Shown in pieces: positions 44,497 to 52,608 of a DNA stretch of 64,000 nt (position 1 is its first letter; each line of letters starts with the position of its first letter). Both the position numbers and the translations under genes were made by a program. The notes beneath the pieces are model-generated. The model saw only the letters and a list, made by a program, of their open reading frames with translations, did not search any database and was not told the origin of the DNA. This DNA comes from an endosymbiont of Lamellibrachia barhami (GTDB lineage: Bacteria; Pseudomonadota; Gammaproteobacteria; Chromatiales; Chromatiaceae), in NCBI RefSeq assembly GCF_011947365.2, contig NZ_JAAVSH020000001.1, positions 3,443,382 through 3,507,381 on the forward strand, in the 5' to 3' direction.

Positions 44497-45993
44497 TTAC
44501 ACCTCTGGCCGCATGTGCGGGAACAACAGAACATCGCGGATGGAGGGTGAATCGGTGAGCAACATCACCAACCGGTCGATGCCGATACCCTCACCAGCCG
44601 TCGGGGGCATACCGTGTTCGAGAGCGCGCACATAGTCGTCATCAAAATGCATCGCTTCATCATCGCCCGCATCCTTCTCCGCAACCTGTTTGCGGAAACG
44701 CTCTGCCTGATCCTCCGCATCATTGAGTTCCGAAAAACCGTTGGCGATCTCACGGCCACCGACAAAAAACTCGAAACGATCGGTAACGAAAGGGTTTTCA
44801 TCGTTGCGACGGGCCAAGGGGGAAACCTCTGTAGGATAGGCGGTGATAAACGTCGGGTTCATCAGGTGATGCTCAACCGTCTTCTCAAATATTTCAATCT
44901 GCACCTTGCCCAGACCGTAGATCTCTTTCAGGGGAATCTCCAGACGCTTTGCGATTGCCCGGGCACTCTCAAGATCATCGAGCTCCGCTTCGCTGATATC
45001 AGGATTGAAGCGGAGGATTGACTCTTTAATGGTCATACGCTGAAACGGCGCACCAAAATCGTAGGACTCACCCTGATAGTCGATCTTGGTCTTGCCCAAC
45101 ACCGTTTCACACATGGCGCGCAACATATCCTCAGTGAGGTTCATCAGATCATTAAAATCTGCATACGCCTCATAAAACTCCAGCATGGTGAATTCAGGAT
45201 TATGGCGACTGGAGAGACCCTCATTGCGAAAATTGCGATTGATCTCGTAAACCCGCTCAAATCCACCCACCACCAGGCGTTTGAGATAGAGTTCCGGTGC
45301 GATACGCAGGAACAGATCCATATCCAACGCATTATGTTTGGTGGTGAAAGGACGCGCTGTTGCGCCGCCGGGGATGACCTGCATCATGGGAGTTTCCACC
45401 TCCATGAACTGCCTGCTGTTCAGATAATTGCGGATAAATTGAACCACTTGGGTACGGGTACGGAATGTCTCTCGTGTCGCCTCGTTCATGATCAGGTCGA
45501 CGTACCTTTGACGGTAACGCTGCTCCTGATTCGACAGACCGTGAAATTTTTCCGGCAAGGGACGCAGCGCCTTGGTGAGCAGACGAACACTGTCCACCTT
45601 GACCGACAGTTCACCGGTGCGGGTTTTAAACAGCACGCCTTCCGCGCCAATGATGTCGCCGATATCCCACTTCTTGAACTGGGTGTTGTAGACCCCCTCT
45701 TCCAGGGAATCCCGCTGGACGAAGAGTTGCATACGGCCTGACATATCCTGCAAATGCGCGAAGCTCGCCTTGCCCATTACCCGGCGGCTCATCATGCGTC
45801 CTGCAATGGAGACCCGCAGCCCGAGGGATTCCATCTCCTCACCCGATTTTTCATCGTACTCCGCATGCAATTCGCCGTTCATGCAGTCGCGCCGGAAATC
45901 ATTGGGGAAGGCGTTGCCGGCTTCACGCAGCTGGTTCAACTTATCGCGCCGCTGGGCGATGAGCTTGTTTTCGTCCTGTACTTGATCGTTCAT
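44497..45993 (-). CDS. lysS: Lysyl-tRNA synthetase, class II
   Basis: 498 aa from [16 protein letters not shown] (45993). OB-fold anticodon domain (about 60-140), then class II motifs: motif 1 [21 protein letters not shown], motif 2 [20 protein letters not shown] and motif 3 [13 protein letters not shown]. It charges tRNA-Lys. It lies downstream of prfB on the same strand, the same order as in E. coli, separated by a hairpin. Confidence 0.96.
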
Positions 45994-46023
45994 ATTACTC
46001 TGTTCAAAATCTGATAAATGAAG

Positions 46024-46081
46024 CCACCAAAGGCGCAAAGAATACGAAGGTTTTTTCTGCGTATTTTTGTATCTTTGGTGG
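46024..46081. repeat. Inverted repeat between prfB and lysS
   Basis: CCACCAAAGGCGCAAAG (from 46024, arm to 46046) pairs imperfectly with CTTTGGTGG-ending arm 46060-46081. On the minus strand it lies just after the prfB stop and could attenuate readthrough into lysS; the overall look resembles the repeat at 20129-20284. Confidence 0.65.
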
Positions 46082-46089
46082 TTTAGAAA

Positions 46090-47188
46090 TTACAGCCCGC
46101 TTTTCAGGCTTGCCTCGATGAACTGGTCGAGCGCACCGTCAAGCACCGCTTGGGTATTGCCCGTCTCCACCCCGGTACGCAGATCCTTGATGCGTGACTG
46201 GTCGAGCACGTAGGAACGGATCTGACTGCCCCAGCCGATATCGGACTTGGACTCCTCCACCGCCGCCTGGGTGTCGCGCTGCTTCTGGATCTCCAATTCG
46301 TAGAGCTTGGCCCGCAGCTGTTTCATCGCATGATCTTTGTTCTTGTGCTGGGAACGGTCGTTCTGACACTGCACCACCGTACCCGTGGGGTTGTGGGTGA
46401 TGCGCACTGCCGACTCGGTGCGGTTGACGTGCTGCCCCCCTGCGCCACTGGCTCTATAGACGTCGATGCGCAGGTCTGCCGGATTGATTTCCACCTCGAT
46501 GGTGTCGTCGATCTCAGGGGAGACAAATACCGCTGCGAAAGAGGTATGACGGCGGTTGCCGGAATCGAAGGGGGATTTGCGCACCAGCCGGTGCACGCCA
46601 ATCTCGGTACGCAGCCAGCCAAAGGCGTGGTCGCCTTCGAACCTGATGGTGGCCGACTTGATCCCCGCCACTTCCCCGGATGAAACTTCCATCAACTCGG
46701 TCTTGAAGCCCCGCGCCTCACCCCAACGCAGATACATGCGCAGCAACATTTCGGCCCAGTCCTGGGCCTCCGTGCCGCCGGAACCGGCCTGGATATCGAG
46801 GAATGCGTTGGAAGCGTCCATCTCGCCGGAGAACATGCGCCGGAACTCCAGTGAGGAGATCTGCTGCTCGTAAGATTCAAGATCCTCTGCCACGGAGGAG
46901 ACCGTCTCTTCGTCCTCCTCCTCCACAGCCATCTCGAGCAGATCGGCGGCATCACCGAGGCCACCTTCCAGTTCGTCGATGGTAAGCACGATGGTTTCCA
47001 GCGTCGCCCGCTCACGCCCCAGGGCCTGCGCCTTCGCAGGGTCGTTCCAGATCGCTGGGTCTTCGAGTTCCCGTAGAACCTCGGTCAGACGCTCCTGTTT
47101 CTCAGGGTAGTCAAAGATACCCCCTCAGGGACTGGGTGCGTCCCTTGAGGTCGTTGATCTTATTGGTGATCGGGTTGATATCCTGCAT
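46090..47188 (-). CDS. prfB: Peptide chain release factor 2 with programmed +1 frameshift
   Basis: RF2 (365 aa) releases peptides at UGA and UAA. The first 25 codons run from the ATG at 47188 to an in-frame TGA at 47113-47111; the context AGGGGGTATCTTTGAC is the conserved autoregulatory site: a Shine-Dalgarno-like AGGGGG, the CTT slippery codon and UGA-C. After the +1 shift the frame continues DYPEKQERL to the end at 46090. The tripeptide region and GGQ motif ([15 protein letters not shown]) are present. This is normal regulation, not an error. Confidence 0.96.
47111..47126 (-). promoter_or_regulatory. prfB programmed frameshift site
   Basis: Minus strand AGGGGGTATCTTTGA: the anti-SD-binding AGGGGG stimulates slippage of the CTT-decoding tRNA onto TTT at the in-frame TGA, so RF2 level controls its own synthesis. 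Confidence 0.95.
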
Positions 47189-47276: not shown

Positions 47277-48086
47277 CTACTGGCTGGTCGCAGGCAGGGT
47301 CGTATCCGCGCCAGTCGGGGCCGCTCTCTGCCGGAAACCTCTCCGAAATACTCCGGTTCCCGATCTTATTCCGCAAACCACTGCATTGACTCCTCGCGAC
47401 AGCAGGCCGGGCTGTGTCCCTGTCTCATCATTTTTCTCTATCAGCGATTTTTCTTCCAGCCACTGGGGTAACGCCTGAAGAATATCCCTATCCCAGGTGA
47501 CGGGCGGCTTTACCCTTCGGGTTTCGCTGTAGTAAGACTTCAGCGCCTCCCTTGTCGTATCTGCACAGCCCGCGGCCGCCAATCGCACCGCAAGTTCCTG
47601 TTCTGCAGAGTAGATACGCTCTTCAATGGTAAAACCAGACTCTCCCAACACCAACGCGATCGCCGAGTAGCTCAGTCCTATTTCGTACCGATAGAGAAAT
47701 GACTCCCGCTGCCGGTATGGCAGTGTGCGCACCAGATCGACCAGCAGTATTCCCCACTGCACGCCATCATTCCCATCGACCAGATCACCAATTGGGTGGG
47801 CCGTTGTTTCCCCACTCCTCTGACAGAAACTGCGCAGTTGTCGATGCAACATCTTGTAGAGCTGAGTCTTGAGACGCCTTGGAGTGGATGCACGGGAGCG
47901 TGCATCGACAAAACCCGCCCATACCTTTCGGTAGAGTGACCTGCCCTGCTCACCAGTACCGCAATGCCGCGCGACATACCGATAGATCCTGCCCTTGTAG
48001 CGCTCATAGAGGCTTTCAAACGCGCCTGCATCACCTTCCATGAAATTCGCCATCAAGTCTTCAATATCGAATCTTCGTTTGCCCAC
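47277..48086 (-). CDS. Sigma-70-family (ECF-like) factor with C-terminal extension, paralogue 1
   Basis: 269 aa from a GTG at 48086 behind GTGGGGG; this start gives exactly the same length as the neighbouring paralogue. Region 2 is FESLYERYKGRIYRYVARH and region 4 is LPYRQRESFLYRYEIGLSYSAIALVLGESGFTIEERIYSAEQEL. A 100-residue C-terminal extension follows (TREALKSYYSETRRVKPPVTW, PQWLEEK) that is absent from ordinary ECF factors and may bind a regulator. No anti-sigma gene is adjacent. Confidence 0.75.
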   Translation of the reverse strand: MGKRRFDIEDLMANFMEGDAGAFESLYERYKGRIYRYVARHCGTGEQGRSLYRKVWAGFVDARSRASTPRRLKTQLYKMLHRQLRSFCQRSGETTAHPIGDLVDGNDGVQWGILLVDLVRTLPYRQRESFLYRYEIGLSYSAIALVLGESGFTIEERIYSAEQELAVRLAAAGCADTTREALKSYYSETRRVKPPVTWDRDILQALPQWLEEKSLIEKNDETGTQPGLLSRGVNAVVCGIRSGTGVFRRGFRQRAAPTGADTTLPATSQ

Positions 48087-48378
48087 ATTTACCCCCACTT
48101 GCACTGTAGCAACGGCAAATTCCGTCGCTTCAAGCCATGACATCTATCGTGTGTAAAGTCTTACATGGCATGTCAGGCATCATTGGGCAGTCCTTCTCAT
48201 TTCGTTCACATCACACCACCGGGTTTCGCGACCCATTTCGCAAAAAACAGGGGGATTTCGTAAACACTTTTCGATTTCACCCGACGACACCTATTTTCTG
48301 ACAAACGGTCACTAAGGAGTGAAGCAGTGCATATATAGAGGATTGGAGCATCAAATGCATAGAGAGGGTGGACGGCAG
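48087..48378. promoter_or_regulatory. Upstream region of sigma-like paralogue 1
   Basis: 292 bp between the two paralogues. It resembles, in diverged form, the region upstream of paralogue 2 (shared TTGGG-N-CCTTCTCATTT near 48183 and 49288, and CACTAAGGAGTGAAGC versus CGCTAAGAGGTGGAGC), so the duplication included the 5' region. No clear -35/-10 assignment. Confidence 0.55.
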
Positions 48379-49188
48379 CTACTGGTTGGTTGCAGGTAAG
48401 GGCATCTTCGCCCCAGCAGGCTCCACACTCTGACGAAGACCCTTTTTTAGGGCGCCAGACCCCGATTTCAATCTTCGAAGCGCAGCATTGAATCCGCGGA
48501 CCAACAGACCGGCCTGCATCCCTGCCTCATTGCTTTCTTCTTGTGGCGCCTTCTCTCCCAGCCACTGGGGTAGCACCTGAAGAATATCCCTCTCCCAGGT
48601 AACTGGCGGTTTCACCCTTCGGGTTTCGCTGTAGTAAGACTTCAGCGCCTCCCTTGTCGTATCTGCACAGCCCGCAGCCGCCAATCGCACTGCGAGTTCC
48701 TGCTCAGCCGACCGGATACGCTCTTCAATGGTAAAACCGGACTCTCCGAGCACCAGCGCGATTGCCGCGCAGTTCAGCCCTATTTCATATCGAAAGAGAA
48801 AAGACTCCCGTTGCCGGTATGGCAACGCACGTACCAGATCAATCAGTAGCACGCCCCACTGTACGCCATCTTCCCCAGCAACCAGCTCTCCAACTGGATA
48901 GGCTGTTGCTTCCCCACTCTCCTGACAGAAGCTACGCATTTGTCGATGCAATATCCTGTAGAGACTGGTCTTGAGATGTCTCGGGGTGGGTGAGAGCGCG
49001 CGGGCCTCGACAAAGTCTGTCCAGAACTTTTGGTAGAGCAACCTACCCTGTTCACCAGTACCGCAATGTCGCACGACATACCGATAGATTCTGCCCTTGT
49101 ACCGCTCATAGAGACTTTCAAACGCGTCTGTGTCGCCTTCCATGAAATTCGCCATCAAGGCTTCAACATCGAACCTCCGTTTACTCAC
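48379..49188 (-). CDS. Sigma-70-family (ECF-like) factor with C-terminal extension, paralogue 2
   Basis: 269 aa from a GTG at 49188 behind GGAGGGG. It aligns without gaps to paralogue 1 over its full length, including region 2 (FESLYERYKGRIYRYVVRH), region 4 (LPYRQRESFLFRYEIGLNCAAIALVLGESG) and the final LPATNQ versus LPATSQ. The residues after about 215 differ most. The two genes share a perfectly identical 62-nt tract, suggesting local gene conversion. A large hybrid histidine kinase begins 375 bp away on the other strand. Confidence 0.75.
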   Translation of the reverse strand: MSKRRFDVEALMANFMEGDTDAFESLYERYKGRIYRYVVRHCGTGEQGRLLYQKFWTDFVEARALSPTPRHLKTSLYRILHRQMRSFCQESGEATAYPVGELVAGEDGVQWGVLLIDLVRALPYRQRESFLFRYEIGLNCAAIALVLGESGFTIEERIRSAEQELAVRLAAAGCADTTREALKSYYSETRRVKPPVTWERDILQVLPQWLGEKAPQEESNEAGMQAGLLVRGFNAALRRLKSGSGALKKGLRQSVEPAGAKMPLPATNQ

Positions 49189-49563
49189 GCTCCCCTCCAC
49201 TTGGTTTGTAGCCGCTGCAAAGTCAGTCGTTTAAATCCACGATTTCTGTTGAATGTGGAGTTTTACACGACCTCTCAGTCATCAATTGGGTAACCCTTCT
49301 CATTTTGCCCACTCCAGACCATTGATTTTCGCGAACCACTTCACAGAATTAAATGACTAATGCAAACAAATGTAAACACGCTCCAAATATTTCCTGAGAC
49401 CTCAATATTTCCAACAATCATCCGCTAAGAGGTGGAGCGGCACATGACATTGTTAATATTGGAGAAAAAAATGCGTACTGAAACAGGGATTGTCACCGCG
49501 CCACATCGAGTCTTTGGATTCACCTGACTCTATGCGTCAGTACCATCGACAAACCCTGAGTCT
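49189..49563. promoter_or_regulatory. Divergent region between sigma-like gene and hybrid kinase
   Basis: 375 bp. The left half is homologous to the upstream region of paralogue 1. A 27-codon open frame (49444-49527, inner ATG at 49471 behind GGAGAAAAAA) precedes the kinase gene and could be a leader or chance. Confidence 0.5.
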
Positions 49564-52500
49564 ATGCACCCGCTTCTGACACGCCAGTTAAAACGGCTTT
49601 TCGGTATCTCTGATGAGCCGAAGTTGGCTGCTGCGCTGCTGGAACTCAGGCAACTTGCAAATTCCGACGGACTGCAGGAGGAGAGCCGCAATCTTCTGGA
49701 GGGTCTCGATCGCCTGCTCGGCCAGATAGATAATACCTATCAACAGCACGAAGCCGATATCATACTGCGCGACCAAAGCCTGGAGATCAGCAACGGGGAG
49801 ATCCTTCAGGCCAACGAGAAGTTGCGTCGTAAGGAACGGCGGCAACACGCCATAATAGAGTCCCTGCGCCGCACGGCCAACGAGCTGCTCAGATCCACCC
49901 ATCTCCCCGAGCTGTCTGACGATGAGACAAGTCTCGAAAAACTCTCTCTGCTGATGAGCGACCTGGTCAAAGAACGGCAGCAGGTGCAAAGCAAACTCGA
50001 ACGCACACTCAGTGAACTCGAAAGGCAAAAATCCGCTATCGACCAACACGCTATCGTCAGCATCACCGATACCAACGGCAAGGTCACCTACGCCAACGAA
50101 GGATTCTGCCGCGTCAGTGGTTACCAACGATACGAATTAATCGGCAAAAAACACCCTCAGTTTAATCAAACTGATCGGTCAGCTGCCATCATCAAAAAGA
50201 TTTGGTCCACCATCCGCCATGGACATACATGGAAGGGTGAATTTGCCAACAGAAACAAAACGGGGACCCTTTACTGGCTCGATGCAACCATTGTCCCTTT
50301 CCTGGACAACCAGGGAGAACCCTTCCAGTACATCAGCATCTGCACAGATATCACAGAGCGCAGAATATTCCAGGAGCAGCTCAAGGACGCTATTCATCGA
50401 GCCGAATCCGCCAATCAGGCAAAGAGCGAATTTCTTGCCAATATGAGCCATGAAATCCGCACCCCGATGAACGCAATCATCGGGCTGAGTCATCTGGCAA
50501 TCGAGGGGAAAACTGACCAGCGTCAGCATGAATATCTGAGCAAGATTCAATCATCCGCCAAAACCCTGCTCAGCATAATCAACGACATCCTCGATTTCTC
50601 CAAGATCGAGGCCGGCGAGATGACTCTGGAGACCGTGGCTTTTTCCCTGAGTGAACTATTGGAGCAGGTTTGCACCATCTTCTGTTTTAGTGCAGAGAAA
50701 AAATCTCTGGAAGTAGTCTACTCAGTTGCCCCCGATCTGCCGGACAGATATATCGGTGATCCATTGCGATTGGGACAGGTGCTCACCAATCTTGCCAGCA
50801 ACGCCGTCAAATTCACGGAACAGGGCGAGATTGTCATCTCGGTTAGCGCCGAAGAGTCACAACAGGGGAAAATCCAACTGCGGTTCGATGTCAATGATAC
50901 CGGCATTGGACTCTCCAAAGATAAACTCGCCGTGCTGTTCGACTCCTTTTCACAGGCCGATTCATCCACTACCCGGAAGTTTGGGGGAACCGGCTTGGGA
51001 CTGGCGATCAGTAAAAGCCTCATCAGCATAATGGAGGGTGAAATTGGTGTCGAGAGCACAGAGGGAGAGGGCAGCAACTTCTATTTCACCCTGCCTCTGC
51101 AGATTGATCCCAAACGGAAATCCCCGAAAAATCTACAACTGCATGGGGTTCGCACAATGGTCGTGGATGATCTCGTGAAGTCACGGGATACAATATTGAA
51201 GACATTACGCTTCCACGGCGCCAATGCCATCGGAAAAGCGCGCGGCGAAACCTGTATAGAAGAACTGCAGCGCTGCTGCCGTGAGGAGCCTACCCGGCCC
51301 TATCAACTCACACTTATCGATTGGTCCATGCCCGGCATGGATGGCCTGCAACTGCTGAGGACAATACAGAGTGATCCACTGATCGACCCCAAACCTCGCA
51401 TTATACTGATGAGTAAATACAACAATGATCAGGCCATCCTCCAAACTGAAACCCGTAACACAACCCTACTGACCAAACCCATCATACCGACGGCGTTTCT
51501 CAATGCCGTACTGAAGGCATTGGGGCGCCCCACCCTGCGCATAAAGCACGAAGCCACGTCCGTCAGCGGCAGGGATGTGGAAAATATCCAGGGCATCCTG
51601 GGAGCCCATATATTAGTTGCAGAAGACAACCCTGTTAATCAGCAAGTTACCAAAGCACTGCTGGAACATTACGGACTTAAAGTCAAGATAGCGGAAGATG
51701 GACGTGCCGCCATTGAAGCATTGGCAAAGACTCGCTTTGACTTGGTGCTTATGGATGTACAGATGCCGGATATCGATGGTTACGAAGCAAGCCGCATCAT
51801 CCGCCAGGATGCCACCTACGACGAAATCCCGATCATCGCCCTGACTGCAAATGCCATGTCCGGCGACCGGGAAGAGAGTCTCGCGGCCGGCATGGATGAT
51901 TATCTGCCGAAGCCGATTGAACCCGATGCGCTCTATGCGATGCTGATCAAGTGGATCCACTCAGGCCAGACAGGCCGCGTCTTCAGTGACGAATACACAT
52001 CGTCAGCGATTCTTCTGCCTGAACATCTGCCCGGCATCGACATCGAAGCAGGTCTGAAAAGGATGCGAGGAAACCAGGCTCTGTTCCGGGATCTGTTACT
52101 GCGATTCCGCGCTGATTATGAGCACTGGAACGGTCGCATCAGCATTGCAATTCTGGAGAACAACAGGGAAGAGGCCCTCCACCTCGCACACGCGCTGAAA
52201 GGCGTTGCCGCTACGATCGGTGCCATGGATCTCTCCACTGCAGCGGCCAGCCTGGAAAAACAGCTGAAGGAAGATATGGAAGATCTGACAGAAATCCACA
52301 ACCGGGTCACTGACCAGCTCTATCAGGTACTTGACGGCCTTAAATCACTGGACAAACCGCCTGAATCCACAACCAGCCGACCAGTCAGCACATTGGATCA
52401 ACAGACCCTTCAGACACTACTTTCCAGTATGAAACCACTACTGATCAACGGCGATCTGCAAGCACTGCAACTGGTCGAGCAACTGCATGAAATGGTTCGT

Positions 52501-52608
52501 GGCACCGAGATGGTGAGTACTGCGCTCGAACTGAAAAAACATGTCGACGCATTCGACTTCGAAAAAGCCCTCAGCACACTGGAATCACACTCTCCTTCCA
52601 CGCAGTAA
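49564..52608 (+). CDS. Hybrid sensor histidine kinase (PAS-HisKA-HATPase-REC-REC-Hpt)
   Basis: 1014-aa soluble phosphorelay protein without membrane segments. N-terminal coiled coil (about 60-160), PAS (about 160-285, [19 protein letters not shown]), HisKA H-box [17 protein letters not shown] (His near 296), HATPase with N-box LASNAVKF and [10 protein letters not shown]. Receiver 1 (about 530-655) has [12 protein letters not shown]; receiver 2 (about 680-800) has VAEDNPVN and [16 protein letters not shown]-terminal Hpt domain shows [13 protein letters not shown] (His near 874). This BarA-like plan needs a separate output regulator, which is not adjacent. The sigma-like genes opposite are possible partners. 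Confidence 0.92.

Follow-up and report, generated by a model that had tools for sequence, protein, structure and literature searches.

On balance, the two tandem genes described here are somewhat likely to encode degenerate look-alikes of ECF-type sigma factors, in which a soluble anti-sigma element, fused at the C-terminus, clamps the protein of which it is a part, and which act by protein binding. In other words, the products are probably self-locked sigma look-alikes instead of ordinary sigma factors. The genes are found in a stretch of 64,000 nucleotides (referred to as the window) from an endosymbiont of Lamellibrachia barhami, and coordinates refer to this stretch unless a locus is named.

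The gene pair and its sigma part

Both genes are located on the reverse strand. Copy A (48379..49188) and copy B (47277..48086) each comprise 269 codons and a stop codon, counted from a conserved GTG; copy A could also start at an in-frame GTG at 49200, and the longest frame of copy B, 288 aa, begins at an ATG at 48143. The two proteins are 74% identical and the only alignment gaps lie 5′ of the conserved start codon, in agreement with the original prediction of two 269-aa paralogues that align without gaps. Their identical length, also noted there, holds in the genome of the window (G000), but not in its five relatives of the same genus, where copy A has 265-270 codons, or in the two of the six genomes (G002 and G003) in which the copy B orthologue is interrupted. 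Copy A is intact in all six, being 93-96% identical and uninterrupted in the other five. In copy B of two genomes (loci L033 and L034) an in-frame stop was seen after 224 and 79 codons. The presence of the pair in 6/6 genomes of the genus, together with dN/dS values of 0.17 for copy A and 0.20 for copy B (15 pairs each), confirms that the gene pair is real and not a chance product. When the genome was searched with the two proteins, they were the only strong matches (third match, E 0.01).

The DNA upstream of copy B (48144..48378, reverse strand) can be aligned with that upstream of copy A (49201..49500, reverse strand) over about 200 nucleotides in each of the three genomes aligned. The unit of tandem duplication was therefore the gene together with its 5′ region, as had been anticipated.

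Regions 2 and 4 of sigma-70 factors are present as predicted, though their recognition by Pfam is weak: Sigma70_r4_2 scores 6e-6 in copy B (just above the cut-off) and 3e-3 in copy A (below it), and region 2 scores 4e-4 in copy B and 0.018 in copy A, both below the cut-off. No receiver domain was found by Pfam in either copy. The C-terminal extension comprises the last 95 residues or so, close to the 100 extra residues first estimated. A known C-terminal domain had been considered as an explanation for it; at the Pfam cut-off, no SnoaL, TPR, WD40, zinc finger or other recognised domain was found there, and the only Pfam signal that touches the extension is a sub-threshold match to DUF2586 over residues 80-230 of copy A. 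Among 18,950 NCBIfam models, NF009166 (PRK12513) was the best for the window proteins (1e-20 and 1e-21; next, 8e-10 and 6e-7), which score 73.8 and 77.3 bits, i.e., below its cut-off of 206. The same model was best for both ordinary relatives scanned, where L040 passes (212 bits) and L043 misses the cut-off (187.5 bits).

The sigma part was compared in a joint alignment, from which the residue numbering is taken, of 53 ordinary sigmas and 31 family members (these counts, and that of 54 partners below, include close relatives, with near-copies kept). At 13 polymerase- or promoter-contact positions, picked for conservation in the ordinary sigmas, the 53 relatives keep 10-13 residues and the family members 0-2. 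The region 2.2 acids, considered at three positions, are found in 0/31 family members vs 48-53 of the 53 ordinary sigmas. Residues of regions 2.4 and 4.2 that presumably contact DNA, as chosen by reference to sigma E, are kept by 0-11 of 31 members per position, vs 50-53 of 53; replacements affect A/N/D/R in region 2.4 and the greater part of the recognition helix in region 4.2. Position 52 is K or R in 29/31 members, and K159 has become E in 28/31. An account of the region 2.2 acidic motif and of what it does is given in passages of PMC8999054.

Other parts of the sigma core are retained. Thirty columns are at least 90% conserved in the ordinary sigmas; in the family nine of these are still at least 90% conserved and 11 have fallen to 10% or less, the kept columns including F26, Y30, W59, L126, I147 and A165. 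Conserved residues specific to the family are RRFD at the start (29-31 of 31), E31, R36, G46 and G177 (31/31) and W115 (29/31), and the KPP-W element of the extension is another newly conserved feature. Forty positions are invariant in 25 members, a set that excludes the genus g61 (see below). The fold core has been kept under purifying selection while the polymerase and promoter contacts were lost across the family. Because these contact residues have been replaced throughout, activity of copies A and B as working sigma factors is doubtful, as judged from their sequences; the loss of known contacts is not proof that polymerase binding is lost.

Copy A is a constrained protein, and copy B is constrained overall though interrupted in two genomes. 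For the element and the tail of the extension, dN/dS is 0.05 and 0.25 in copy A and 0.28 and 0.37 in copy B, where the values for B include the two interrupted copies. Gene conversion between the two copies was considered and set aside; block identity is 0.88-0.98 over the element, but it also reaches 0.88-0.92 in an early block.

The C-terminal extension and the partner of ordinary sigma factors

In the three ordinary loci read by eye (Pfam was run on one), a YfbK-like von Willebrand gene is followed by the sigma gene. A partner with a membrane segment is encoded 3′ of the ordinary sigma gene in 54/55 loci (>105 bits; e.g., L043:6885-9852, L040 and L041); five of the 55 failed the first motif filter, four of which were re-added by eye, and at L128 no partner was recognised. 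The broken sigma gene at L134 is counted in the 54 and the 55 and left out of the 53. No such partner was found in four weaker ECF loci below the 105-bit cut (L129, L160, L161 and L162). In 50 of the ordinary loci the two genes overlap, with the partner start codon 4 to 41 bases inside the 3′ end of the sigma gene. A hydrophobic segment is present in 53/54 partners (KD 1.6 or more), and the consensus of the N-terminus is L-S-x-L-Y-x(7)-P-P-A-x-L-D-x-x-I-L-A-A-A-R. None of three partners scanned matched a Pfam family at the cut-off. Given the LY..PP..LD..IL N-terminus and the hydrophobic segment, these partners are candidates for an uncharacterised anti-sigma family. Of the six genomes of the window's genus, only two were found to have the ordinary sigma-partner system (loci L133, L134, L163 and L164); in one of these, G005, the sigma gene is interrupted and its partner open.

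The extension is composed of an ordered element of about 30 residues (Y..xR..KPP..WD..IL..W) and a disordered tail. In copy A the helix-PP-helix element ALKSYYSETRRVKPPVTWERDILQVLPQWL, a predicted cis anti-sigma element according to the partner profile and the structure model, is encoded at 48559..48648 and the tail (pLDDT under 50) at 48382..48552; in copy B the corresponding element lies at 47457..47546 and the tail, located by alignment with copy A, at 47280..47450, all on the reverse strand. The family motif of the extension is S-L-E-x-L-Y-R-E-S-R-V-V-K-P-P-x-S-W-D-x-E-I-L.

A search of 958 sequences with a profile of the 54 partner N-termini hit 29 of the 31 family members whose extension is complete (E 3e-4 to 0.025), and the matches run from model positions 12-17 to 39-40 at the same place in each family protein. 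The two members from g61 gave E 2 and 3.4, i.e., chance level. The best of 680 shuffled decoys (60 of them from three incomplete members) reached 0.22, and ordinary sigmas 3.6 or worse. When 189 frames of the window were scanned, copy B (0.0015) and copy A (0.072) were the best, followed by a match at 2.5. A profile-profile comparison of partner N-terminus and extension gave E 4.4e-6 (for a single comparison), a probability of 87% and a score of 33.4, whereas none of 200 column permutations scored above 13.5. When nine whole genomes were searched with 25 partner N-termini, the extension was the best match in 4/9 genomes (G000, G001, G003 and G012; E 0.008-0.11) and the true partners in 4/9 (G002, G005, G028 and G148); in G004 an unrelated segment came ahead of the extension (0.142 vs 0.318). 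In G000 the copy B extension is the sole match of the partner N-terminal profile genome-wide at E up to 1 (0.027). The extensions were not found as matches when the full partner protein was the query.

No anti-sigma gene adjoins the pair, which upholds the original prediction as regards the surroundings of the pair, and an overlapping downstream membrane partner was found neither beside the pair nor in the G000 genome. An orphan anti-sigma elsewhere in the genome was considered and rejected, the whole-partner query giving short matches only (at best E 8e-5), many of which fall on query residues 51-73. This part of the partner (about residues 51-73; L043:6885-7580) has numerous short matches, most of them with 50-80% identity, in all six genomes of the genus, and it resembles a small dispersed repeat read as protein. 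The highest 19-residue hydropathy of any family tail is 1.32, so that, on this simple scale, the extension has no transmembrane segment. In view of its resemblance to the partner N-terminus, and with no separate partner found in this genome, the extension has the appearance of an anti-sigma element that is soluble and fused in cis. The earlier suggestion of a regulatory role for the extension receives support from homology in respect of the ordered part, which is similar to the N-terminal end of the membrane partner found with related ECF sigmas.

The structural prediction of the extension that had been proposed as a check was obtained with AlphaFold models of copy A and of the Thiodiazotropha endolucinida member, from 25 sequences each (mean pLDDT 76 for both; pTM 0.71 and 0.69). 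High confidence is given to the sigma domains and to both helices of the element, with block pLDDT 87-95 up to residue 210, and the tail is disordered. The sigma2 and sigma4 folds match solved ECF sigmas with best Z values of 16.1 and 13.7. Both models show a closed sigma2-sigma4 arrangement, which superimposes as one body on SigW-RsiW (rmsd 2.5 over 152 and 3.2 over 152), on CnrH-CnrY (2.7 over 150 and 2.4 over 143) and on RpoE-NepR (4.0 over 154 and 2.9 over 144), while there is no superposition on sigma E in RNA polymerase (27.8 and 27.9). The RseA, MucA and RskA complexes match only in part. The closed form is shared by SigG1 and SigJ, two sigmas with a C-terminal domain of their own (3.5 over 150 and 3.6 over 127), so this form is not proof of a clamp, and AlphaFold may be biased toward it. 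The element itself would be seated on sigma2 and sigma4.

Distribution and genomic surroundings

An order-wide search (210 genomes, 61 genera; cut-off 1e-20) gave matches in 34 genomes. Those in the four genomes of genus g77 (E about 1e-22; loci L137 and L139-L141) are ordinary sigmas and were dropped, and the remaining 30 genomes represent the family in 4/61 genera: the window's genus, which we take to be Endoriftia, Thiodiazotropha (g8) and two MAG genera (g24 and g61). It occurs in 6/6 genomes of the window's genus, in 21 of at least 22 of g8 (G157 is without it), in one of g24 and in two of g61. The copies are paired in Endoriftia, and one copy per locus was seen in the other genera. A scan of named contigs gave 25 loci, i.e., 23 family members and two generic ECF sigmas. 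The hosts are Escarpia and Lamellibrachia tubeworms for the window's genus; the g8 members comprise Candidatus Thiodiazotropha and symbionts of the clams Ctena and Stewartia. L087 (g24) is from a gammaproteobacterial MAG, and L100 is from a Chromatiales MAG with a protein identical to that at the g8 genome locus L075.

In the tree, the family forms one clade (100/99) with a position among the ordinary sigmas that is not settled; its join with OUT_L161 was flagged by the program as possible long-branch attraction. A viral origin was looked for in one scan of viral contigs, which gave nothing, and a plasmid origin was rejected after seven plasmid records yielded generic ECF sigmas only (25-34% identity). 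The g61 genomes encode another sigma-like protein, some 250 aa long (L171:6987-7730 and L172:429-1178), with a milder loss of contacts and a tail that bears a faint likeness to the element (E of just 0.19 and 0.37); this protein is a possible intermediate. Within the literature covered, to which most subscription journals did not belong, nothing was recognised on the family or on a YfbK-sigma-partner operon, and the passages on sigma factors in PMC7787665 and PMC9796809, both on Endoriftia, make no mention of the genes of the pair.

The surroundings were compared using tblastn matches covering >30% of the query (L077 and L078, with flanks of 1.5 kb, were uninformative). Downstream of the pair lie a conserved neighbour at 46090..47188 and, 3′ of it, a gene at 44497-46038, both on the reverse strand, which we take from their sequences to be prfB and lysS. 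The upstream part of this presumed prfB (window 47110-47130, TATCTTTGAC) resembles the site of programmed frameshifting known from release factor 2, with an RF2-like CTTTGAC frameshift sequence near 47120. The prfB-lysS genes are found downstream on the same strand in 5/5 Endoriftia loci and in 15/16 others where the contig reaches; L090 is without them, and the contigs of L087, L100 and L101 end before that side. A divergent gene, presumably for a glycosyltransferase-like protein as read from its sequence, lies on the opposite side in 18/19 non-Endoriftia loci, all except L087. Between this gene and the sigma-like pair, in Endoriftia only, sits a hybrid histidine kinase (49564..52608, forward strand; PAS, HisKA, HATPase_c, two receivers and Hpt by Pfam), which is not counted in the system. 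In G005 (L036) the kinase appears as two tblastn pieces, and in L091 a partial kinase match (27%) lies 5 kb from the sigma-like gene.

Proposed mechanism, alternatives and known systems

It is quite possible, if tentative, that these proteins are a new family of sigma mimics, seen here mostly in chemosynthetic symbionts of animals, that arose when a sigma factor was fused with the part of its own anti-sigma that binds sigma, subsequently lost their polymerase and promoter contacts, and now work as self-locked protein-binding switches. Most likely, a sigma in an ancestor of these genera would have been fused with the binding end of its membrane anti-sigma, a simple step because ordinary sigma and partner genes overlap; the membrane part would then have been lost, and the polymerase and promoter contacts given up. 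The element would fold back on its own sigma2-sigma4 and hold it closed, by analogy with CnrY or NepR in trans. Since the extension is without a membrane segment, release would occur by a cytoplasmic signal or ligand instead of proteolysis of a membrane anti-sigma, and the protein would function as a sigma mimic or decoy through protein-protein binding and not as a promoter-specificity subunit. Several observations count against this explanation: the anti-sigma function of the partner is itself a prediction, the closed form is unspecific, the g61 members are hit by the partner profile no better than chance and other single matches are weak, and copy B is broken in 2/6 genomes with an element that is not specially constrained (0.28).

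A working ECF sigma with altered polymerase and promoter contacts, switched by the fused element in cis as in ECF41-type or IutY-type factors, is unlikely, yet it agrees with the sigma fold and partial core kept under purifying selection; moreover, passages of PMC8999054 present cis-regulatory extensions as an established kind and ECF43 sigmas as functional without the acidic DAED motif. ECF43 is, however, described in those passages as losing only the 2.2 motif, whereas here the region 2.2 acids, the region 2.4 A/N/D/R residues and most of the region 4.2 recognition helix were lost together, and the changes at positions 52 and 159 also speak against working sigma activity. The same lost contacts, and the interruption of copy B in G002 and G003, would be expected if the paralogues were functionless and decaying, a very improbable reading that is disfavoured by the dN/dS of copy A (0.17, and 0.05 over its element), by its intactness in 6/6 genomes and by the 40 invariant positions.

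PhyR provides a precedent for a sigma mimic (passages of PMC4598750), and PhyR-NepR structures are among the matches of both models (Z 10.5 and 9.3); a decoy of this kind, with a sigma-like part that titrates the trans anti-sigma of an ordinary sigma, is nevertheless rather improbable, as an ordinary sigma with its partner was not found in 4/6 genomes of a genus in which all six have the pair, and the copies contain no receiver domain. That the pair is a target of the adjacent hybrid kinase is hardly credible. The kinase is the divergent neighbour of the pair in 5/5 Endoriftia loci examined, but no full-length homologue was found near the sigma-like gene in 21 other loci (flanks up to 8 kb, several shorter), and the sigma-like proteins have no receiver domain; the kinase was rejected as partner on synteny, and the original proposal of it as a candidate controller is not supported.

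If the reading as self-locked sigma look-alikes is true, a sigma and the binding end of an anti-sigma were merged into one soluble protein that then left its promoter role, which would give sigma mimics another route of origin in addition to that of PhyR. The uncharacterised membrane partner at 54/55 ordinary loci would be predicted to be a CnrY-like anti-sigma, and the pair would mark a conserved regulator in uncultured symbionts of tubeworms and clams.

Among known systems, the NF009166 (PRK12513)-like ECF sigmas are the best family for the sigma half, and the N-terminus of their partner resembles the ordered part of the extension; in the window proteins, in contrast, the partner segment is in cis, there is neither a membrane segment nor a von Willebrand neighbour, and the contact residues are lost. 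In CnrY two helices hold sigma2 and sigma4 closed, and PhyR-NepR is alike (passages of PMC4598750). The proteins described here resemble CnrY/NepR-type anti-sigmas in two predicted ordered helices within about 30 residues and a closed sigma2-sigma4, a likeness seen in the models, and differ in that the element is fused in cis and has no membrane segment. With PhyR, the sigma mimic of the alphaproteobacterial stress response, they share a sigma-like fold, a compact form and probably the absence of sigma activity, but they have a clamp-like element of their own instead of a receiver domain. A C-terminal fused regulator replaces a separate anti-sigma also in IutY/ECF243, ECF48, ECF52 and ECF53; these have membrane-bound portions, some have zinc fingers, and the sigma is a working one (passages of PMC8999054), whereas the present extension has neither a membrane segment nor, by Pfam, a zinc-finger match. 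Finally, the acidic motif of region 2.2 is missing in ECF43 (EcfP and EcfK) as well, but ECF43 sigmas pair with a Ser/Thr kinase, while here the neighbour is an unconserved histidine kinase and the promoter contacts have been lost too.
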